From Rhodocyclaceae bacterium (lineage in GTDB: Bacteria > Pseudomonadota > Gammaproteobacteria > Burkholderiales > Usitatibacteraceae): a DNA stretch of 32,209 nucleotides. Numbering within the stretch: the stretch's first letter is position 1; every line of letters starts with the position of its first letter. The notes under the pieces were generated by a model. It did not search any database, was not told the DNA's origin, and saw only the letters and a list, made by a program, of their open reading frames with translations. This document shows positions 18,056 through 32,125 of the stretch, one piece after another. The stretch lies in NCBI GenBank assembly GCA_020247395.1, contig JADCJC010000037.1, forward strand, positions 1 to 32,209, given 5' to 3'. Position numbers and translations under genes: made by a program.

Positions 18056-19912
18056 ATGTGCGGAATTGTGGGAGCAATCTCTTCACGCGACATCGTGCCC
18101 ATTTTGACCGAGGGTTTAAAACGTCTTGAGTATCGGGGATACGACTCGTCAGGGTTGGCGGTCATGTCTGCCGGGTCTGAAGAGATAGCGCGCGTCAGAC
18201 GAGTTGGCCGGGTCGCAGAAATGGAACGTGCAGTAGCCGCGAAAAAATTAACTGGTCGAATTGGAATCGGCCATACTCGTTGGGCAACACACGGAGGTGT
18301 AACTGAACCGAATGCACATCCACACGTTTCGCAGCGCGAAATTGCCGTGGTTCACAATGGCATTATTGAAAACCACGAGACGCTCCGTGCACTGCTCAAG
18401 CAACGCGGTTATGTGTTTGAGTCCCAGACTGATACAGAAGTCATCTCACATCTGGTTCATTACTATTTTCAACTCTCTGGGGATTTTTTCAGAGCTGTAC
18501 AGATCGCAGTCAGAGAAATGCATGGTGCCTATGCAATCGGGGTTATGGCGCGGTCGCACCCGGAACTGCTGATTTGTGCAAGAGTGGGCTGTCCGCTCTT
18601 GATCGGCGTCGGCAAGGTTGGACATAGCGGTACCATGACTGAGAATTTTATTGCCTCAGATGTTTCCGCCATCTTGCAAGTTACGCGCAACGTCATGTAC
18701 CTTGAGGAAGGCGATGTTGCCGCGATTACCTGTGCCTCGATTTCGGTGGTGAATCGCCAGGGAAGCCCGGTTGAGCGTGCCATCCACGTTTCCGAAGTAA
18801 GCGATGATGCAAACGATCTTGGACCGTACACCCACTTTATGCAAAAGGAGATCCACGAGCAGCCGAGGAGGATCGCCGACACCCTAGAGGCGGTTCTTAC
18901 TAACGGTATTGATGTTGCCCAATATGGAGCTAAGGCTGAATCCTATTTTGCAGGTGCGACCAGTGTACTCATACTCGCATCAGGTACCAGCTACTACGCA
19001 GGTATGGTCGCAAAGCAGTGGATCGAGTCCATTGCCCGAGTCCAGTGCCAAATCGAGTTGGGCCATGAGTACCGCTACCGCGATTCGCTGCCAGATCCGG
19101 GTCAGCTTGTCGTCACCATTTCGCAATCCGGCGAAACGCTTGACACGATGGAGGCGTTAAAGCGCGCAAAGCAGCTCGGCCACAGTGCGACTTTGTCTAT
19201 TTGCAACGTGAGAGAGTCGGCAATTCCGCGTGCGTCAGCAATGGCGTTCTACACGAGGGCTGGTACGGAGATTGGCGTTGCGTCAACCAAGGCCTTTACC
19301 ACCCAGCTCGCCGCGTTGTTCACCTTCGCGGTATCACTCGCGAAATCAAAGGCTCGCCTAAGCGTAGAACAGGAAACTGCCTATATTGAGCAATTGCGCT
19401 TTGTGCCGGGAAGCGTGCAGCATGCGCTGAATCTTGAACCGCAAATACAATCATGGGCCGAGCTGTTTGCGCAGAAAAATCATGCGCTGTATCTTGGGCG
19501 CGGATTGCACTATCCCATTGCGCTAGAAGGCGCGCTTAAACTAAAGGAAACTTCATACATCCACGCCGAGGCATATCCTGCCGGCGAACTTAAACACGGC
19601 CCACTCGCACTAGTCGACAGCAATATGCCGGTTGTCGTTGTCGCCCCAAACGATGTACTGCTTGAGAAGGTGAAGTCGAACATGCAAGAAGTGCGTGCGA
19701 GAGGCGGCGAACTATTTGTGTTCTCCGACGCAGACAGCCACTTTCACGAAAGTGAAGGCATACATGTCATCCGCACTCCTCGTCACGCAGGACTGCTTTC
19801 CCCTATCATCCACGCCATTCCAGTCCAGCTGCTTGCGTATCACACCGCTCTTAAACGTGGAACCGATGTGGACAAGCCACGAAACCTCGCAAAATCTGTG
19901 ACGGTGGAGTAA
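18056..19912 (+). CDS. glmS: glutamine-fructose-6-phosphate aminotransferase (isomerizing)
   Basis: Makes glucosamine-6-phosphate from fructose-6-phosphate and glutamine, the first step to UDP-GlcNAc. The 618 residues start MCGIVGA, with the N-terminal nucleophile cysteine exposed after Met removal; [20 protein letters not shown] and VVHNGIIEN complete the glutaminase domain. Two SIS domains follow ([11 protein letters not shown] with [11 protein letters not shown], then [19 protein letters not shown] and [12 protein letters not shown]). The C-terminus [11 protein letters not shown] is the strictly conserved segment whose DNA is bound by TnsD, so this gene end also works as an attTn7 target. 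A Tn7-like element lies just downstream. Confidence 0.98.
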
Positions 19913-19913
19913 T

Positions 19914-19935
19914 AATTCATCTTTAAGGATGAATT
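19914..19935 (+). terminator. hairpin after glmS, T-tract displaced by insertion
   Basis: AATTCATC (19914-19921) pairs with GATGAATT (19928-19935) around a six-base loop. It begins two bases after the glmS stop codon. The bases that follow (GTTTCTT) are only partly T-rich and already belong to the transposon end, so the original T-tract may have been replaced. Its efficiency as a terminator is uncertain. Confidence 0.55.
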
Positions 19936-20013
19936 GTTTCTTGAGAATAAAGTCTAGAACTCAGTAATAAAGTCTAGAACTTCTCGGTGAACATCGGGAA
20001 TAAAGTCTGGAAC
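19935..20013 (+). repeat. right-end-like TnsB site array (glmS-proximal)
   Basis: Three direct copies of the 15-mer AATAAAGTCTAGAAC are seen: 19946-19960 and 19966-19980 (identical) and 19999-20013 (one change, CTGG for CTAG). The spacings are 20 and 33 bases. Dense same-strand sites starting 11 bases inside the terminal TGT are the design of the Tn7 right end, which is also the end that faces glmS. A second TGTTTCTT occurs at 20019-20026, meaning unclear. Confidence 0.75.
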
Positions 20014-20050
20014 AAGTCTGTTTCTTAGCGCGCCGACTCTTGCAAGTAGT

Positions 20051-20257
20051 TCAGTAATACTGACGGATATACCCGTAAGCCTTCTCAAATAGCTCCTCGT
20101 CCGCGTGCAGCTTGTACTTAAAAAGCGCCTTTCTAAGGGCCATCTTGATCTGGCGCTCCCCCGCTAATGTCCCCTGCCAGCCAGGAAACCGCACTAAGCG
20201 AACGATCTCGTCAATATCCTTCACCACGCGCTCCACGATGATCGGTGTCTCGGTCGT
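20051..20257 (-). pseudogene. hsdR: 3' fragment of a type I restriction enzyme R subunit gene
   Basis: The translation reads TPIIVERVVKDIDEIVRLVR, then FPGWQGTLAGERQIKMALRK and ALFKYKLHADEELFEKAYGY, ending IRQYY and a TGA. This resembles, from memory, the extreme C-terminus of HsdR proteins (pattern IVERVV.DID.IV....F.GWQ, then LRK.L.KYKLH). The frame stays open only to 20311 and shows no helicase or nuclease domain; full-length HsdR has about 1,000 residues, so this is the last 6-7%. The GTG at 20236 could start a 61-residue peptide, but I see no reason to believe in it. It lies just inside the glmS-proximal transposon end, so it is probably the leftover of restriction-modification cargo after an internal deletion. 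Confidence 0.7.
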
Positions 20258-20325
20258 CTTAACTTCTGACCCTATGCGTGCTTGGCGGTAGGGAACAAAA
20301 TGTTTCGTAGGTTAGGTTAGACCAC

Positions 20326-20706
20326 ATGGCAAAGACCCAATACTGCTGGCGATGCAAAATGCCCTTGCCGATGCTCGACGAACATGAATGGGAACTGATT
20401 CATCCACTTCTTCAAGATGCAATTGAGGATGTAAAACGCTATCGTGAGGCGCATGGCGCTTCCATAGAAGAGGCAAAAGCAGATGGTTACGGGCTTGCAG
20501 CACTGGCGCTCTATCAGCCAATAACTGGAATTGCGGAAACAAACCCCGATGCAATTTGGCATCACCGCCTCAGTCTTTTTGGTCCTCCCTGTGCTGCTTG
20601 CGGAAAACCCTTGCGTACTCCTGAAGCGCGCATGTGCGCTGCGTGTGGCACAGGTAGGTCTAACTCGTCACTCCACACATACGCTTCAACAGCGGAGCGT
20701 CCGTAA
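20326..20706 (+). CDS. conserved hypothetical protein with three CxxC knuckles
   Basis: The 126-residue soluble protein carries CWRC at 7-10 at its N-terminus and a second pair, CAAC at 89-92 and CAAC at 104-107, that would form a zinc ribbon (PPCAACGKPLRTPEARMCAACG). The middle is helical and acidic (MLDEHEWELIHPLLQDAIED; EETNPDAIW-like segment near 70-78). Proteins of this pattern are, as far as I recall, scattered among proteobacteria without an assigned function. No strong ribosome binding site is seen before the ATG. It lies inside the Tn7-like element and is therefore probably cargo. The last 18 residues after the zinc ribbon look less conserved and may be replaced. Confidence 0.65.
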   Translation: MAKTQYCWRCKMPLPMLDEHEWELIHPLLQDAIEDVKRYREAHGASIEEAKADGYGLAALALYQPITGIAETNPDAIWHHRLSLFGPPCAACGKPLRTPEARMCAACGTGRSNSSLHTYASTAERP

Positions 20707-20801
20707 GCTAGGTCGTGAAGGGCTCGCTATCAAAAAAATAGCTGGTAGATTACGTATGATGTTTTCGGCCAATAGCTGACGTATCAACAATCGCCTCCAA
20801 T

Positions 20802-21152
20802 ATGCACCCTCATCCGTTGCCACTGATTAGTCATCAACGCTGGAAACTTCGTCTCGCCTTCGCAGCCCTCCTGATGAGCGGCGCCGCGATGATGTTTGAC
20901 AAACAGCTCTCGGCCGTAATGTCGGTTCAGACATACGTACCTACACTAATTGGCACAGCAGTCGGACTCGCTGCAATGGTTTTTTCGGTCATCGCAGTTC
21001 GCTGCCCCCAGTGCGGAACCAGCCTTGCTTGGCTTGCCATTTCGCAGAAGTCCTCATCGTCGTGGCTGGATTGGCTCCTAGACGTCTCCGTTTGTCCAAA
21101 GTGTGGTCATTCGAGCATCAAAGAGCAAAGTGATCAAAAGAACGCGCTGTAA
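20802..21152 (+). CDS. hypothetical membrane protein with C-terminal zinc ribbon
   Basis: The 116-residue protein has two hydrophobic segments (about 17-32 and 46-66), followed directly by a zinc-ribbon pattern, CPQC at 68-71 and CPKC at 98-101, and a polar tail. The topology would place the ribbon in the cytoplasm or periplasm next to the membrane; which side is unclear. I do not recognise the family. It is the second zinc-knuckle protein inside the Tn7-like element. No clear ribosome binding site; an in-frame start further in is possible. Confidence 0.55.
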   Translation: MHPHPLPLISHQRWKLRLAFAALLMSGAAMMFDKQLSAVMSVQTYVPTLIGTAVGLAAMVFSVIAVRCPQCGTSLAWLAISQKSSSSWLDWLLDVSVCPKCGHSSIKEQSDQKNAL

Positions 21153-21400
21153 CTATCGGCAAGCTGAGGCCGCTAAGCCGCGACATCGAATGTCGGCTTT
21201 CGGGTAATCGCCATGTCAGCTATGGGTCAACAGCGACGGTTCCTGCCGGAAAAAAGCGGTCATTCGATCTAGCCGCCGCCACACTTAACCAAAGATGTTT
21301 GCGACGGATTCAAGTAGTATGGTTTCTGGTCACCAAATCGATTTGGTCATAGGCAGAAAGTTAGTGGTGCGAGATGAACCGAATTCGCCCGCGCATATTT
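21153..21400. other. non-coding part of the Tn7-like element
   Basis: No convincing gene. Short inverted patterns such as GACATCGAATGTC (21181-21193) and repeated ATGTC/GGTCATTC words are present. A 75-residue frame from 21295 runs through the distal end repeats and has no ribosome binding site, so I do not call it. Confidence 0.4.
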
Positions 21401-21569
21401 GTTCTCGACTTTATTGCGCAACCCGTCTAACAAAAAAGCAAGAATTTGCTGTAGTTCTCAACATTGCAGATTCGATTGTCGGAAATTGGGTTCGGTTTTT
21501 AAGCCGGCTTACTGGGAAGTGAATTAAAAATTGATTGAAAAATGTTCTCGACTTTTTTGTTACGAAACA
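21401..21569 (-). repeat. left-end-like TnsB site array (glmS-distal)
   Basis: Inverted relative to the proximal end: GTTCTCGACTTTATT at 21401-21415 (14 of 15 bases match the complement of the proximal repeat) and GTTCTCGACTTTTTT at 21544-21558 (13 of 15). A weaker copy lies at 21454-21468 (9 of 15). The outermost copy is followed by 11 bases ending in ACA. Widely spaced sites over about 170 bases are characteristic of the Tn7 left end, which in attTn7 lies away from glmS. Confidence 0.7.
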
Positions 21570-21841
21570 AAAACGTTCTGCCTTGGGTTCCATCTACGTT
21601 TGCTGATGGTGTCGAGGTTAAGAATCTTGGAAAAGCGAACGGGCGAGCGTTTCAACTAGTTCGCTTTCAGGCTGGTGCTTCAAATCCATCACACATTCAT
21701 AATTACTGTGAATTCATCTACGTTCTGGAAGGTGAGGTATTCCAGAACGGACGGCGACTAACAGTTGGCTCGTCTACGGATGCTTCGGCGGGAACTATTG
21801 ACGAGACTGCTGAATTGCGCTTTGACTTGAACCAAAATTAG
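21542..21841 (+). CDS. cupin-domain protein, probably truncated at both ends
   Basis: The open frame has 99 residues. The cupin motif 1 pattern is clear: GASNPSHIHNYCEFIYVLEGE gives HxH, then Glu and Gly at the expected spacing, as in ChrR-like anti-sigma/cupin proteins. Motif 2 (the second metal-binding His) is absent, since the protein ends soon after the VGSSTDASAGTIDET segment with an unrelated-looking tail. The ATG and the first nine codons lie inside the distal end of the Tn7-like element, so the native N-terminus has probably been replaced. Whether it still makes a stable protein is doubtful; a pseudogene is a fair alternative. Confidence 0.5.
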   Translation: MFSTFLLRNKNVLPWVPSTFADGVEVKNLGKANGRAFQLVRFQAGASNPSHIHNYCEFIYVLEGEVFQNGRRLTVGSSTDASAGTIDETAELRFDLNQN

Positions 21842-21994
21842 CCGAAACTTGCGCGCTGCACTGAAGCGCCCGGAACACGTGATCGCAATGATGTTTCACG
21901 GTTTTCCGGTCGAAGTGCGGGTCATTTCCCGGTGCAATTGGGGGGGTCAATTTTTAGCGCAACTGCACACGTTGAGCCTCGCCGGGGCGCAACA

Positions 21995-23146
21995 CTAACG
22001 GAACTGCCGCCGGAACCGAGCCGTTCCCAGCGCCAGAAACGCCAGCCCCAGCATCACCATGAGGGCCGCTGGCTTGGCCACGGCCGCCAGATCGGCCCCC
22101 TTAAGCAGTACGCCGTAGGTGATGTCAACAAAGTAGCGAAGCGGCGACAAGTCAATGGCTACCTGCAGCCACCCCGGCATGCTTTCGCGCAGATTCCAGG
22201 TGCCCGAGAGCATGGTGATCGGCATTACCAACAGCAGCACGATCAGCCCGACTTGGCCGGAGCTGCGCGCGAAGGTCGCCGCCACGACACCAAGCCCCGA
22301 AGCCGTCATCGCATACAGCGCCACCAGCGAGAAGAACAGCAGCGGGCTTCCGGCGAACGGTACGCCGAGCAGCCCATGCATCACAAGGCCCACCGCCACC
22401 GTAGAGCCGACCAGCACCACGCCCGCCATTGCCACCACCTTGGCTAGCACGATCTGCAGCGGTGATAACGGCGATACCAGCAGCTGCTCGATGGTGCCGC
22501 GCTCCTTCTCGCGCACCATCGCCGCCGCTGGCAGTAGTATTGACGCCACCGTGATCATCGTCAGTAGCTCGGAGATGGTTGCGTACCACGCCTCAGTCAG
22601 TGCGGGGTTGAAACGGTAGCGCGCCTGCAGCTGCACCTCGGGCAGCACTACCGCCGTGCGCGCCAGCGAGTATTCAGCCGCCAGCGTCGCTAAGATTCGC
22701 TCGGTGTAGCTTGCCACTAAGTAGCCGAGGTTGGAGTCGGCCGCCTCGACCACGAGCTGTACCTGCGCCGTCTCGCCGCGCACAAAAGCGCGCTCAAAGT
22801 CGTGCGGAATGGTGAGCACTGCGCGTAGTTGCCCGCGTTCGAGCTGGCGCGCCACCTGCGCTTCGTCGTCGGCGACGGCGCGCACGTCGAAGTACGGTGC
22901 CCGCAGGCGTCCGGCCAGCTCGCGCGAGGCGACGCTGCCGTCGCGGTCGATCAGACCGATCGGCGCACTGCGCAGATCGAGTTCCGGCGCGCCGGCGGCA
23001 ATTAGGATGTCGAGGGTGAAGATGAACACTACGAAGCCGACCAGCGCGGTGTCGCGTAGCAACTGGCGCCATTCCTTGCCCACCAATGCTGCCACCTGCC
23101 GCAGCCAGCGGCCCGCGCCTCGCGCAAACCGGGAGAGGCCACTCAC
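21995..23146 (-). CDS. ABC-2 type transporter permease (YhhJ/YbhR-like), second of two
   Basis: The 383-residue membrane protein has the ABC2_membrane_3 layout: one N-terminal helix (about 33-52), a large extracytoplasmic domain (about 53-175), then five to six helices in the C-terminal half. The coupling segment AAAMVREKERGTIEQLLVSPLSP is diagnostic, since the REKE..T.E.L..SP pattern is typical of export permeases. It is the last gene of the operon and should pair with the permease upstream as a heterodimer energised by the fused ATPase. Substrate unknown; relatives export drugs, ions or lipids. GC-rich like its operon. Confidence 0.92.
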   Translation of the reverse strand: MSGLSRFARGAGRWLRQVAALVGKEWRQLLRDTALVGFVVFIFTLDILIAAGAPELDLRSAPIGLIDRDGSVASRELAGRLRAPYFDVRAVADDEAQVARQLERGQLRAVLTIPHDFERAFVRGETAQVQLVVEAADSNLGYLVASYTERILATLAAEYSLARTAVVLPEVQLQARYRFNPALTEAWYATISELLTMITVASILLPAAAMVREKERGTIEQLLVSPLSPLQIVLAKVVAMAGVVLVGSTVAVGLVMHGLLGVPFAGSPLLFFSLVALYAMTASGLGVVAATFARSSGQVGLIVLLLVMPITMLSGTWNLRESMPGWLQVAIDLSPLRYFVDITYGVLLKGADLAAVAKPAALMVMLGLAFLALGTARFRRQFR

Positions 23147-30522: not shown

Positions 30523-31824
30523 ATGGACGGCACTTCCCCTGTGAGACGAAAACTTGTCGCTGGTGCATTGGCGTCTGCCACCACACTATTTTTGACGCGT
30601 TGCTCTGCAGGCGGCGGAAATGGCAGTATTGGTGTCGGCCTTCCCAGCGGCCCGAGCGCAGCAAACTCTTGGGCAGAAGACTTGGCAGCGATGGCGAACA
30701 ACATCCGCAATACCCACCCGGACCCTAATGGAATTACGCGCAGCACCACTTGGAACAATACGGTCAGCAGTATCACCGCCGATGCAAACGGCAAGTCTGC
30801 CAAGGAAAATTTAATCGCCGCGATCCGGCTCGCCGCGCTGATGCAGGATGAGCACACGGGAGTGAGTACCACACCGGTCGTATTAGCAGGAACTCCTATC
30901 CGTTTTGCAACAGCGAGTGACGGCCCTTGGGTGCAACAAATAACCGCGTCGCAAGTCAATAGCCTCGGAGCCCGTCTTATTGCCATAGACGGCATCGCCA
31001 TTGCTGAAATTTCGACCCGCCTGCGCGCCTATATCTCGGCGGCGACTGCTGAGGGTTACGCCTTCAACACGCCGCCAATGCTGCATCAGTGCGAGTTGCT
31101 TGCACTAATCGGTGTCGGGCGCAGCGCCACGCAGGCGACATACACGCTTCGGTCATCCAGCGGTGCCGAGTTCGCGATCACCCTGCAGGCCAATGACACA
31201 TCTGCTCGGCAATCGATCTATGGCCGATCTGACGGGCCGGCCGCGCCCCTATGGCTATCGCAACCTGATCGCAACTACTTCATGGTGCCTCTGTCAACCA
31301 GTCAGAGTGTCTACCTGCGGTATTCGCGTTGTGCGCTGGACGCCGCTGCGCCGATTGATCCGGTCTTCGATTCGGTGGCGAACGCATTGGCGGCGCTTGA
31401 CCAACCTAGGCTGATCATCGATCTTCGCAATAATGCCGGCGGGGACTCTTCCATTTTCTCAAACGCGATGATTCGTTTATCCAACGCATTCCCGCGCCTA
31501 TTGCAGACACGCGTTGTAGTACTGATCAACAATGGCGTGTTCTCCTCGGCAACATTAAATCTCTATGATTTGTTGAGGTACCCAAACGCCACCACCATCG
31601 GCGAGCCGCCCGGCACCCCACCGAACCATACAGGTGAAGTGCGTAGTTTCACCCTAGCCCGAACCGGTCTGGGCCATACAAGCTCGACCAAGGTGTTTAC
31701 CCTCGACTCGTCGCTGGGAAGCCGAAACTACACGCCAAACATCTTGGTTGCGCCGAGCGTGGACGACCGCGCCAATGGGCGAGATCCGGTGCTGGCCCGC
31801 GCGGAAGCGTTTTTGATGAATTGA
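30523..31824 (+). CDS. secreted S41-like (C-terminal processing peptidase family) protein
   Basis: The protein has 433 residues. The N-terminus VRRKLVAGALASATTLFLTRCS is a signal sequence with a twin-arginine-like pair and a cysteine (Cys27) that may be lipidated, although Arg before it is unusual for a lipobox. The helical MQDEHTGV (108-115), the PDZ-like RLIAIDGIAIAEI (151-163), IIDLRNNAGGDSS (298-310) and LINNGVFSSATLN (334-346) follow the S41 order, with Ser341 or Ser342 as candidate nucleophile. The lysine expected about 25 residues on is not seen: GEPPGTPPNHTGE has none. It may therefore use another base or be inactive. An AAAGGAAA ribosome binding site precedes the ATG. Its 5' end is duplicated downstream. 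Confidence 0.82.
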   Translation: MDGTSPVRRKLVAGALASATTLFLTRCSAGGGNGSIGVGLPSGPSAANSWAEDLAAMANNIRNTHPDPNGITRSTTWNNTVSSITADANGKSAKENLIAAIRLAALMQDEHTGVSTTPVVLAGTPIRFATASDGPWVQQITASQVNSLGARLIAIDGIAIAEISTRLRAYISAATAEGYAFNTPPMLHQCELLALIGVGRSATQATYTLRSSSGAEFAITLQANDTSARQSIYGRSDGPAAPLWLSQPDRNYFMVPLSTSQSVYLRYSRCALDAAAPIDPVFDSVANALAALDQPRLIIDLRNNAGGDSSIFSNAMIRLSNAFPRLLQTRVVVLINNGVFSSATLNLYDLLRYPNATTIGEPPGTPPNHTGEVRSFTLARTGLGHTSSTKVFTLDSSLGSRNYTPNILVAPSVDDRANGRDPVLARAEAFLMN

Positions 31825-31861
31825 AGCATATGCCTTCCATTGAAGCGTAAACCCGCAAACG

Positions 31862-32125
31862 TGCTAAGAGAGGAAATATATGGACGGCGCTTCCCCTGTA
31901 AGACGAAAACTCGTCGCTGGTGCATTGGCGTCCGCCACCACATTATTGTTGACGCGTTGCTCTGCAGGCGGCGGAAATGACAGTATTGGCGTCAGCCTTC
32001 CCAGCGGCCCGAGCGCAGCAAACTCTTGGGCAGAAGACTTGGCAGCGATGGCGAACAACATCCGCAATACCCGCCCGGACCCTAATGGCATTCCAAAGGG
32101 TAACCCGCGTCTCGGTAACCCATGA
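31862..32125 (+). pseudogene. truncated duplicate of the S41-like gene (first 71 codons only)
   Basis: From about 31862, including the ribosome binding site, to 32092 the DNA repeats the start of the preceding gene. By hand I count 11 mismatches in the 213 bases from the ATG. The frame starts at ATG 31880 and gives the signal sequence and the first part of the mature protein (MDGASPVRRKLVAGALASAT and onward to RPDPNGI). The similarity then stops abruptly and ten unrelated codons lead to a TGA at 32123-32125 that overlaps the next ATG. The peptide has no catalytic part. It could be a decay product or a leader that couples translation to the sigma factor gene. Confidence 0.85.

Follow-up and report, generated by a model that had tools for sequence, protein, structure and literature searches.

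We identified, directly behind the glmS gene of a Rhodocyclaceae bacterium, a 1.6-kb stretch that is probably an internally deleted, decayed Tn7-like element of the tnsABC-tnsD kind at attTn7. It spans positions 19935-21569 of the window, by which we mean the whole analysed stretch of 32,209 nucleotides, contig C65 of the source genome (G000; 3.9 Mb in 133 contigs). Its ends, the offset of its outermost repeats, its asymmetry and its place all point to a Tn7-type origin. The element is not an intact Tn7-like transposon: the 5-bp target duplication and the tns genes were both looked for, and the borders carry no duplication (TGAAT on the left, AAAAC on the right), nor does the interior contain tnsA, tnsB, tnsC or a target selector. 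An attTn7 insertion with no transposase genes inside had been proposed in the first-pass annotation of this DNA, and that description holds.

The 3' end of glmS is the attachment gene of Tn7. In the window, glmS (18056-19912, plus strand) encodes 618 amino acids with SIS (1.5e-51) and GATase_6 (3.3e-17) domains; its stop codon ends at 19912, and the TGT of the element begins after a spacer of 22 bp (19913-19934), which is the same point as the earlier reading of a first base 23 bp after the stop. The glmS-proximal, right-type end (19935-20013, plus strand) starts with the terminus TGTTTCTTGAG at 19935 and carries three direct copies of a 15-mer, AATAAAGTCTAGAAC at 19946 and 19966 and the variant AATAAAGTCTGGAAC at 19999 (0, 0 and 1 mismatch), at spacings of 20 and 33 bp. 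About 1.4 kb away, the distal, left-type end (21401-21569, minus strand) holds two inverted copies, AATAAAGTCGAGAAC at 21401-21415 and AAAAAAGTCGAGAAC at 21544-21558, bringing the total to five, and its terminus reads TGTTTCGTAAC inward from 21569. Both termini begin with TGTTTC and share 21 of their 26 terminal bases by hand count, and at either end the outermost 15-mer lies 11 bp inside the terminus. The two ends are asymmetric, with three sites in 68 bp at the right-type end, which faces glmS, and two over 158 bp at the left-type end. The 15-mer arrays, which stand in inverted orientation at the two ends, are putative TnsB-type sites, and the inverted TGT ends, the repeats in the TnsB-site position and the right/left asymmetry that had been noticed beforehand were each confirmed. 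According to a large survey, arrays of sites at both ends are a criterion for Tn7-like transposons, and the distance from terminus to outermost site has a median of 12 bp (PMC8649781).

When the whole source genome was searched at up to 2 mismatches, the 15-mer was found at seven places, five of them within the element; the two outside matches, with 2 mismatches, are each a lone site. A reversed control pattern occurred at six places in 3.9 Mb, corresponding to about 0.0025 expected per 1.6 kb. A weight-matrix scan of positions 19900-22000, with a matrix partly derived from the element's own five sites, recovered those five with scores of 21.3-26.7 (maximum 26.7) and no further site above a low threshold at which shuffling predicts 0.9. 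The ends of the element are single-copy in the source genome at up to 2 mismatches.

The interior consists of a gene fragment and two small ORFs. Beside the right-type end lie the last 70 codons and stop of an hsdR gene (20051-20263, minus strand), an in-frame tail of a type I restriction subunit that matches the C-terminus of long ORFs in genomes G054 and G032. Its hand-read translation matched no Pfam family (best 0.11). The tail keeps its native stop and is cut on its 5' side, the remainder of the gene being gone, and this truncation points to internal deletion. The ORFs of 126 amino acids (20326-20706, plus strand) and 116 amino acids (20802-21152, plus strand) are possible cargo, each with a weak zinc-ribbon match below the cut-off. 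Two plasmid records match the former with 41-43% identity, and the latter had no match among plasmids. Just beyond the element is a cupin ORF (21542-21841, plus strand), the called start of which overlaps the distal terminus; at the DNA level, this flank had no counterpart here in the other 12 genomes of the genus. It is followed by a chromosomal gene for what looks by eye like an ABC-type permease (21995-23146, minus strand).

Two further species of the genus, G003 (Betaproteobacteria bacterium UKL13-2, CP012157.1) and G008 (contig C317, JAJTHU010000251.1, labelled Nitrosomonadaceae), have similar ends behind glmS. As DNA, the right end was present in 3 of 28 family genomes (G000, G003 and G008). 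A search for paired sites with as many as 3 mismatches covered 399 genomes sampled from the order and found the pattern in three of them (G000, G003 and G405). The distance from TGT to glmS stop is 22 bp in all three genomes of the genus, and the spacers, equal in length, are unrelated in sequence, with 7/21, 8/22 and 11/22 identical positions in pairwise comparison (33-50%). For the same pairs, the last 1600 nt of glmS are 69.5-70.7% identical and the first 138 bp of the element 80.4, 82.2 and 88.1% identical over aligned positions. With the 15-mers removed, identity of the ends is 78.3% (65/83), 76.9% (60/78) and 87.2% (68/78, G003/G008), which is clearly higher than that of glmS just for G003/G008 (P 0.0005) and not clearly so for the other pairs (60/78, P 0.13; 65/83, P 0.075); the end is non-coding DNA, for which the spacers are a better yardstick than glmS. 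Since unrelated spacers are joined to similar ends, a site-specific mover is indicated rather than inherited intergenic DNA, and we conclude from these alignments that the same kind of end came separately to the same distance from glmS in the three genomes. The right end of G008 has the same site spacing as that of the window, and that of G003 has two sites and is without one 20-bp unit. The G003 DNA match reaches about 95 bp into the hsdR tail; that of G008 covers just about 12 bp of it and then meets an insertion, IS110-like by eye, which together with the contig end breaks up the G008 remnant.

A different remnant was found in G009, the glmS of which is 96% identical to that of the window and is followed by the same permease (92% amino acid identity). 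There the TGT lies 19 bp after the glmS stop, a left-type end faces glmS, and about 2 kb separate it from the permease gene. In reverse orientation, the glmS-proximal end of G009 aligns with the distal end of the window element over 93 bp at 75% identity. Apart from the terminal ~25 bp, which are common to both kinds of end, nothing in G009 matches the window's right end, its hsdR tail, its ORFs or the cupin gene at the DNA level. Inherited intergenic DNA was accordingly rejected, on the unrelated spacers and the different content of G009. The remnants of G003, G008 and G009 resemble that of the window in their attTn7 position, in the 15-mer and in the lack of tns genes in the stretches read, whereas their inner contents differ. 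It is clear that one genus took several Tn7-like insertions behind glmS, at least three of which are now short and without movers (G000, G003 and G009).

Several further observations concern these relatives. In G003 (L044, 2453-4534) a second right-type end follows 2056 bp after the first, preceded by CAGAT where the other has CAAAT, and looks like the result of two successive attTn7 insertions. The same remnant contains an ORF resembling a HigA-type antitoxin by eye (L044, 3400-4320), as well as a short ORF. Behind the latter stands an imperfect inverted repeat of 35 nt, GCCTAAC...GTTAGGC, which resembles an integron attC site. In G001, a tnsD fragment (PF15978, 1.8e-17) lies near a frame that looks HsdR-like (C228; L197, 2482-3364). 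That genome also has a single site resembling an end (TGTTTTTCGCC then AATAAAGTCGGTCAC; 4 mismatches), which is of another type.

The region was compared with 61 genomes, loci were obtained for 30 places, and 27 of these are glmS loci other than that of the window. Within 400 bp behind the glmS stop, no 15-mer at up to 4 mismatches was present in 24 of the 27, including four of the genus (G004, G010, G011 and G012); G003, G008 and G009 make up the remainder and do have sites. This count is without the genus members G001, G002, G005, G006 and G007, four of which had no region match, the match of G005 extending up to the glmS stop. Empty attTn7 sites in relatives had been named as a check on the insertion, and sister species do have glmS loci without the element; none was found with exactly the window's two flanks, and the other genomes of the genus gave no match to the cupin flank.

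Other bacteria have elements with transposition genes, some of them directly behind glmS, in which the sites differ from the 15-mer of the window by one to three bases, and thus the window's sites fall within the range of Tn7-type sites. The closest is in G405, of the same order, where the terminus TGTTTCGTGAC is followed by AATAAAGTCTTGAAC twice and AATAAAGTCTTGAAT once, sites 1-2 bases different from those of the window at the same spacings of 20 and 33 bp. The element then continues with DncV-like, patatin, ThiF and JAB genes (CBASS-type cargo), and 26 kb on there are ORFs aligning with the TnsA (25%) and TnsB (23%) of G132, together with TniQ (2.1e-12) and TnsD (5.1e-26) matches and one ORF that by position occupies the place of TnsC. 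Its terminus and three right sites are like those of the window element; its transposition genes, its length of tens of kb and its place behind an ammonium-transporter-like gene are not. A left end was looked for in G405 and none was found. This region (C7, 312266-355760; L132, L133 and L144) has two TniQ/TnsD proteins and, 43 kb on, a second right-type stretch. A tns-bearing element with the same ends had also been suggested as a check, and G405 supplies one with nearly the same ends.

In G132, AATAAAGTCTTAAAC follows glmS within a partial copy and recurs 1.2 kb further along, ahead of TnsA (3.1e-22), TnsB and TnsD (2.7e-25) genes; we take this element to be Tn7 or close to Tn7. The first 1.2 kb behind glmS (L179) is a partial element copy, made up of a right end and part of tnsA, ahead of an element with tnsA to tnsD. 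As read in G132, Tn7 shares with the window element its place behind glmS, the right end towards glmS and the 11 bp from terminus to first site, and has tnsA, tnsB, tnsC and tnsD where the window element has no tns genes. Its first terminus lies 25 bp after the stop with sites about 20 bp apart, compared with 22 bp and spacings of 20 and 33 bp in the window. The right sites are identical at 13 of 15 positions, closer than the 15-mer is to the Tn7 site cited in the first-pass annotation. That annotation had argued for an own, divergent TnsB; the 15-mer does differ from the Tn7 site then compared, but the divergence was overstated, since tns-bearing elements have sites only 1-2 bases away. In Bacillota, AAAGTCGGGAAC stands directly behind glmS, and the downstream genes encode TnsA (3.4e-25), a Mu_C-type TnsB (1.7e-8) and TnsD (9.9e-114) in G416, and TnsB (8.3e-9) and TnsD (3.1e-99) in G418. 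G415 has AATAAAGTCGGGAAC twice and AATAAAGTCAGGAAC once adjoining a TnsB gene and a TniB/TnsC gene, and G054 has AATAAAGTTTTGAAC three times (spacings 20 and 44) with a TnsB gene 11 kb on (3.1e-77 to the TnsB of G405).

In the stretches fetched around 14 TnsB genes (G054, G020 and 12 more), clear sites were found in G054 and G132 and weaker ones (3-4 mismatches) near glmS in G082, and the other 11 had no clear site. A scan of genome contigs with the end pattern gave 45 stretches, many of which look by eye like repeats, tandem or coding; we inspected the surroundings of every stretch and the ORFs in 11. Five of them (L065, L071, L094, L053 in G008 and L057 in G003) stand close behind glmS, at no more than about 60 bp. 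In G417, to which L094 belongs, PF09299 had no match; this profile misses the TnsB of G132. Viral contigs gave six stretches matching the pattern, judged unrelated by context, and none in two narrower scans; phages gave none. Among plasmids, the right end had just one 37-bp match, in Leptospira, with an E value of 0.1, which was taken as chance.

We also searched for a partner transposase in the source genome and in the genus. No TnsD was found in the source genome with PF15978. Given that PF09299 misses the known TnsB of G132, and that the TnsA and TnsB of G405 are without a Pfam match at 0.01, a search with PF09299 is no proof of absence, and protein searches were therefore added. In the source genome, an assembly of 133 contigs in which a gap could hide one, these detected neither a G405-type nor a G132-type TnsB, and G003 and G008 gave no TnsB match. 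TnsB-like genes were found in G002 and G009 (24% identity), and the same two genomes have TnsA-like genes over the cut-off. In the source genome, contig C34 has an ORF with rve and Mu_C domains that runs off the contig, C7 has a TniQ match below the cut-off adjoining an AAA protein, and C104 has a TnsA-like match below the cut-off in a 946-aa ORF. None of the three could be linked to the 15-mer, and the contig of the TnsB-like ORF on C34 has no 15-mer site above chance level. The TnsA/TnsB/TniQ genes on C3 of G009 were likewise rejected as a partner, since the 80 kb that were read contain no site within 2 mismatches. By eye, the C34 frame (L131, 1200-3869; 890 aa) has a TnsA-like N-terminal part before its rve and Mu_C domains and is perhaps a TnsAB fusion. 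The C7 locus (L142, 3222-6274) combines an AAA protein, a weak TniQ and what looks by eye like a transposase C-terminus, and appears to be another Tn7-like or Tn5053-like element.

Taken together, these findings make internal deletion and decay the most probable history: the tns genes are missing, hsdR is cut, the borders lack a duplication and the element is single-copy. In this account, a Tn7-like transposon of the tnsABC-tnsD kind would have entered attTn7, its three-site right end facing glmS as in Tn7 and at least a type I restriction gene lying beside that end. Judging from the family, the 15-mers would have been bound by its TnsB and the end of glmS by its TnsD. An internal deletion would then have removed the transposition genes and most of the cargo, leaving both ends, the 70-codon hsdR tail and the two small ORFs, and the element could now move only if a compatible TnsABCD came into the cell. 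The ends, the position, the relatives and the absence of tns genes are observations from which we infer the kind of transposase lost and the order and cause of the losses. Several points count against this history: there is no target duplication, no empty site with exactly these two flanks was found, the right and left ends could stem from two insertions, the ends without their 15-mers clearly exceed glmS in identity for G003/G008 only, and the G008 match reaches just about 12 bp into the hsdR tail. Moreover, independent decay alone would hardly be expected to leave one genus with three or more short insertions that have no tns genes.

The latter point would fit better with a non-autonomous mini-element with small cargo, moved in trans by the TnsABCD of visiting Tn7-like elements as a Tn7 counterpart of a MITE, an account that we consider unlikely. 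Both ends look usable (right sites with 0, 0 and 1 mismatch; two left sites), the ends arrived independently, and G003 and G009 have short stretches with such ends at this point, each without tns genes and with other contents; the former runs about 2.05 kb to the second right-type end and the latter about 2 kb to the permease gene. Like a MITE, the window element is short, with two ends and no transposase. Unlike one, it is single-copy and has no partner transposase found in its genome; moreover, its right end is restricted to 3 of 28 family genomes, no TnsB match was found in G000, G003 or G008, the TnsB on C3 of G009 has no such site in 80 kb, and just G000 keeps both ends in good shape. It is similarly doubtful that the genus hosts a family of ~1.5-2-kb cargo-only mini-Tn7 elements with shared ends, arriving repeatedly at attTn7 from outside and moved in trans by passing TnsABCD. 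The first-pass annotation had offered a compact cargo-only or decayed element; decay agrees with the cut hsdR and the absent tns genes, and mobility in trans finds no support, given the single copy, the searches of the genome that yielded neither a TnsD nor a G405- or G132-type TnsB, the missing duplication and the truncated hsdR.

Borders without a duplication would also be explained if the two ends came from two successive attTn7 insertions and the interior were a leftover of both. The second right-type stretches of G003 (2056 bp on) and G405 (43 kb on) are in keeping with such a composite, but the window holds just one right-type and one left-type end, and we regard this history as improbable. 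That the pattern is no transposon at all, and merely a dispersed intergenic repeat or a chance arrangement behind glmS, has almost nothing to recommend it beyond the two other genome places that match at 2 mismatches. Both are single sites, with about 0.0025 expected in 1.6 kb, the 22-bp spacing recurs in G003 and G008, and tns-bearing elements carry like sites. The whole-genome site count against the control led us to reject this reading, and the 15-mer, with five of its seven places inside the element, is not the unrelated dispersed repeat that it might have proved to be.

An internally deleted element of this kind would escape searches that begin with the transposase. The large survey of Tn7-like elements started from tnsB, so transposase-less elements were invisible to it (PMC8649781). 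A search based on ends behind glmS reveals Tn7-like remnants without tns genes in one genus. No description of transposase-less mini-Tn7 elements was found in the literature searched; most subscription journals were outside its scope, so one may exist. If the short forms were mobile, Tn7-like elements would have their own parasites.

Two other features of the window were recorded. DNA matching positions 21179-21265 recurs in contig C25 of the source genome and in G003 (four places), G009 (two) and G011 (one), and the stretch represents a dispersed repeat of the genus. At 30523-32125, two frames of close similarity stand in tandem, one of 433 aa and the other, near the contig end, of 81 aa; they are probably the result of gene duplication.
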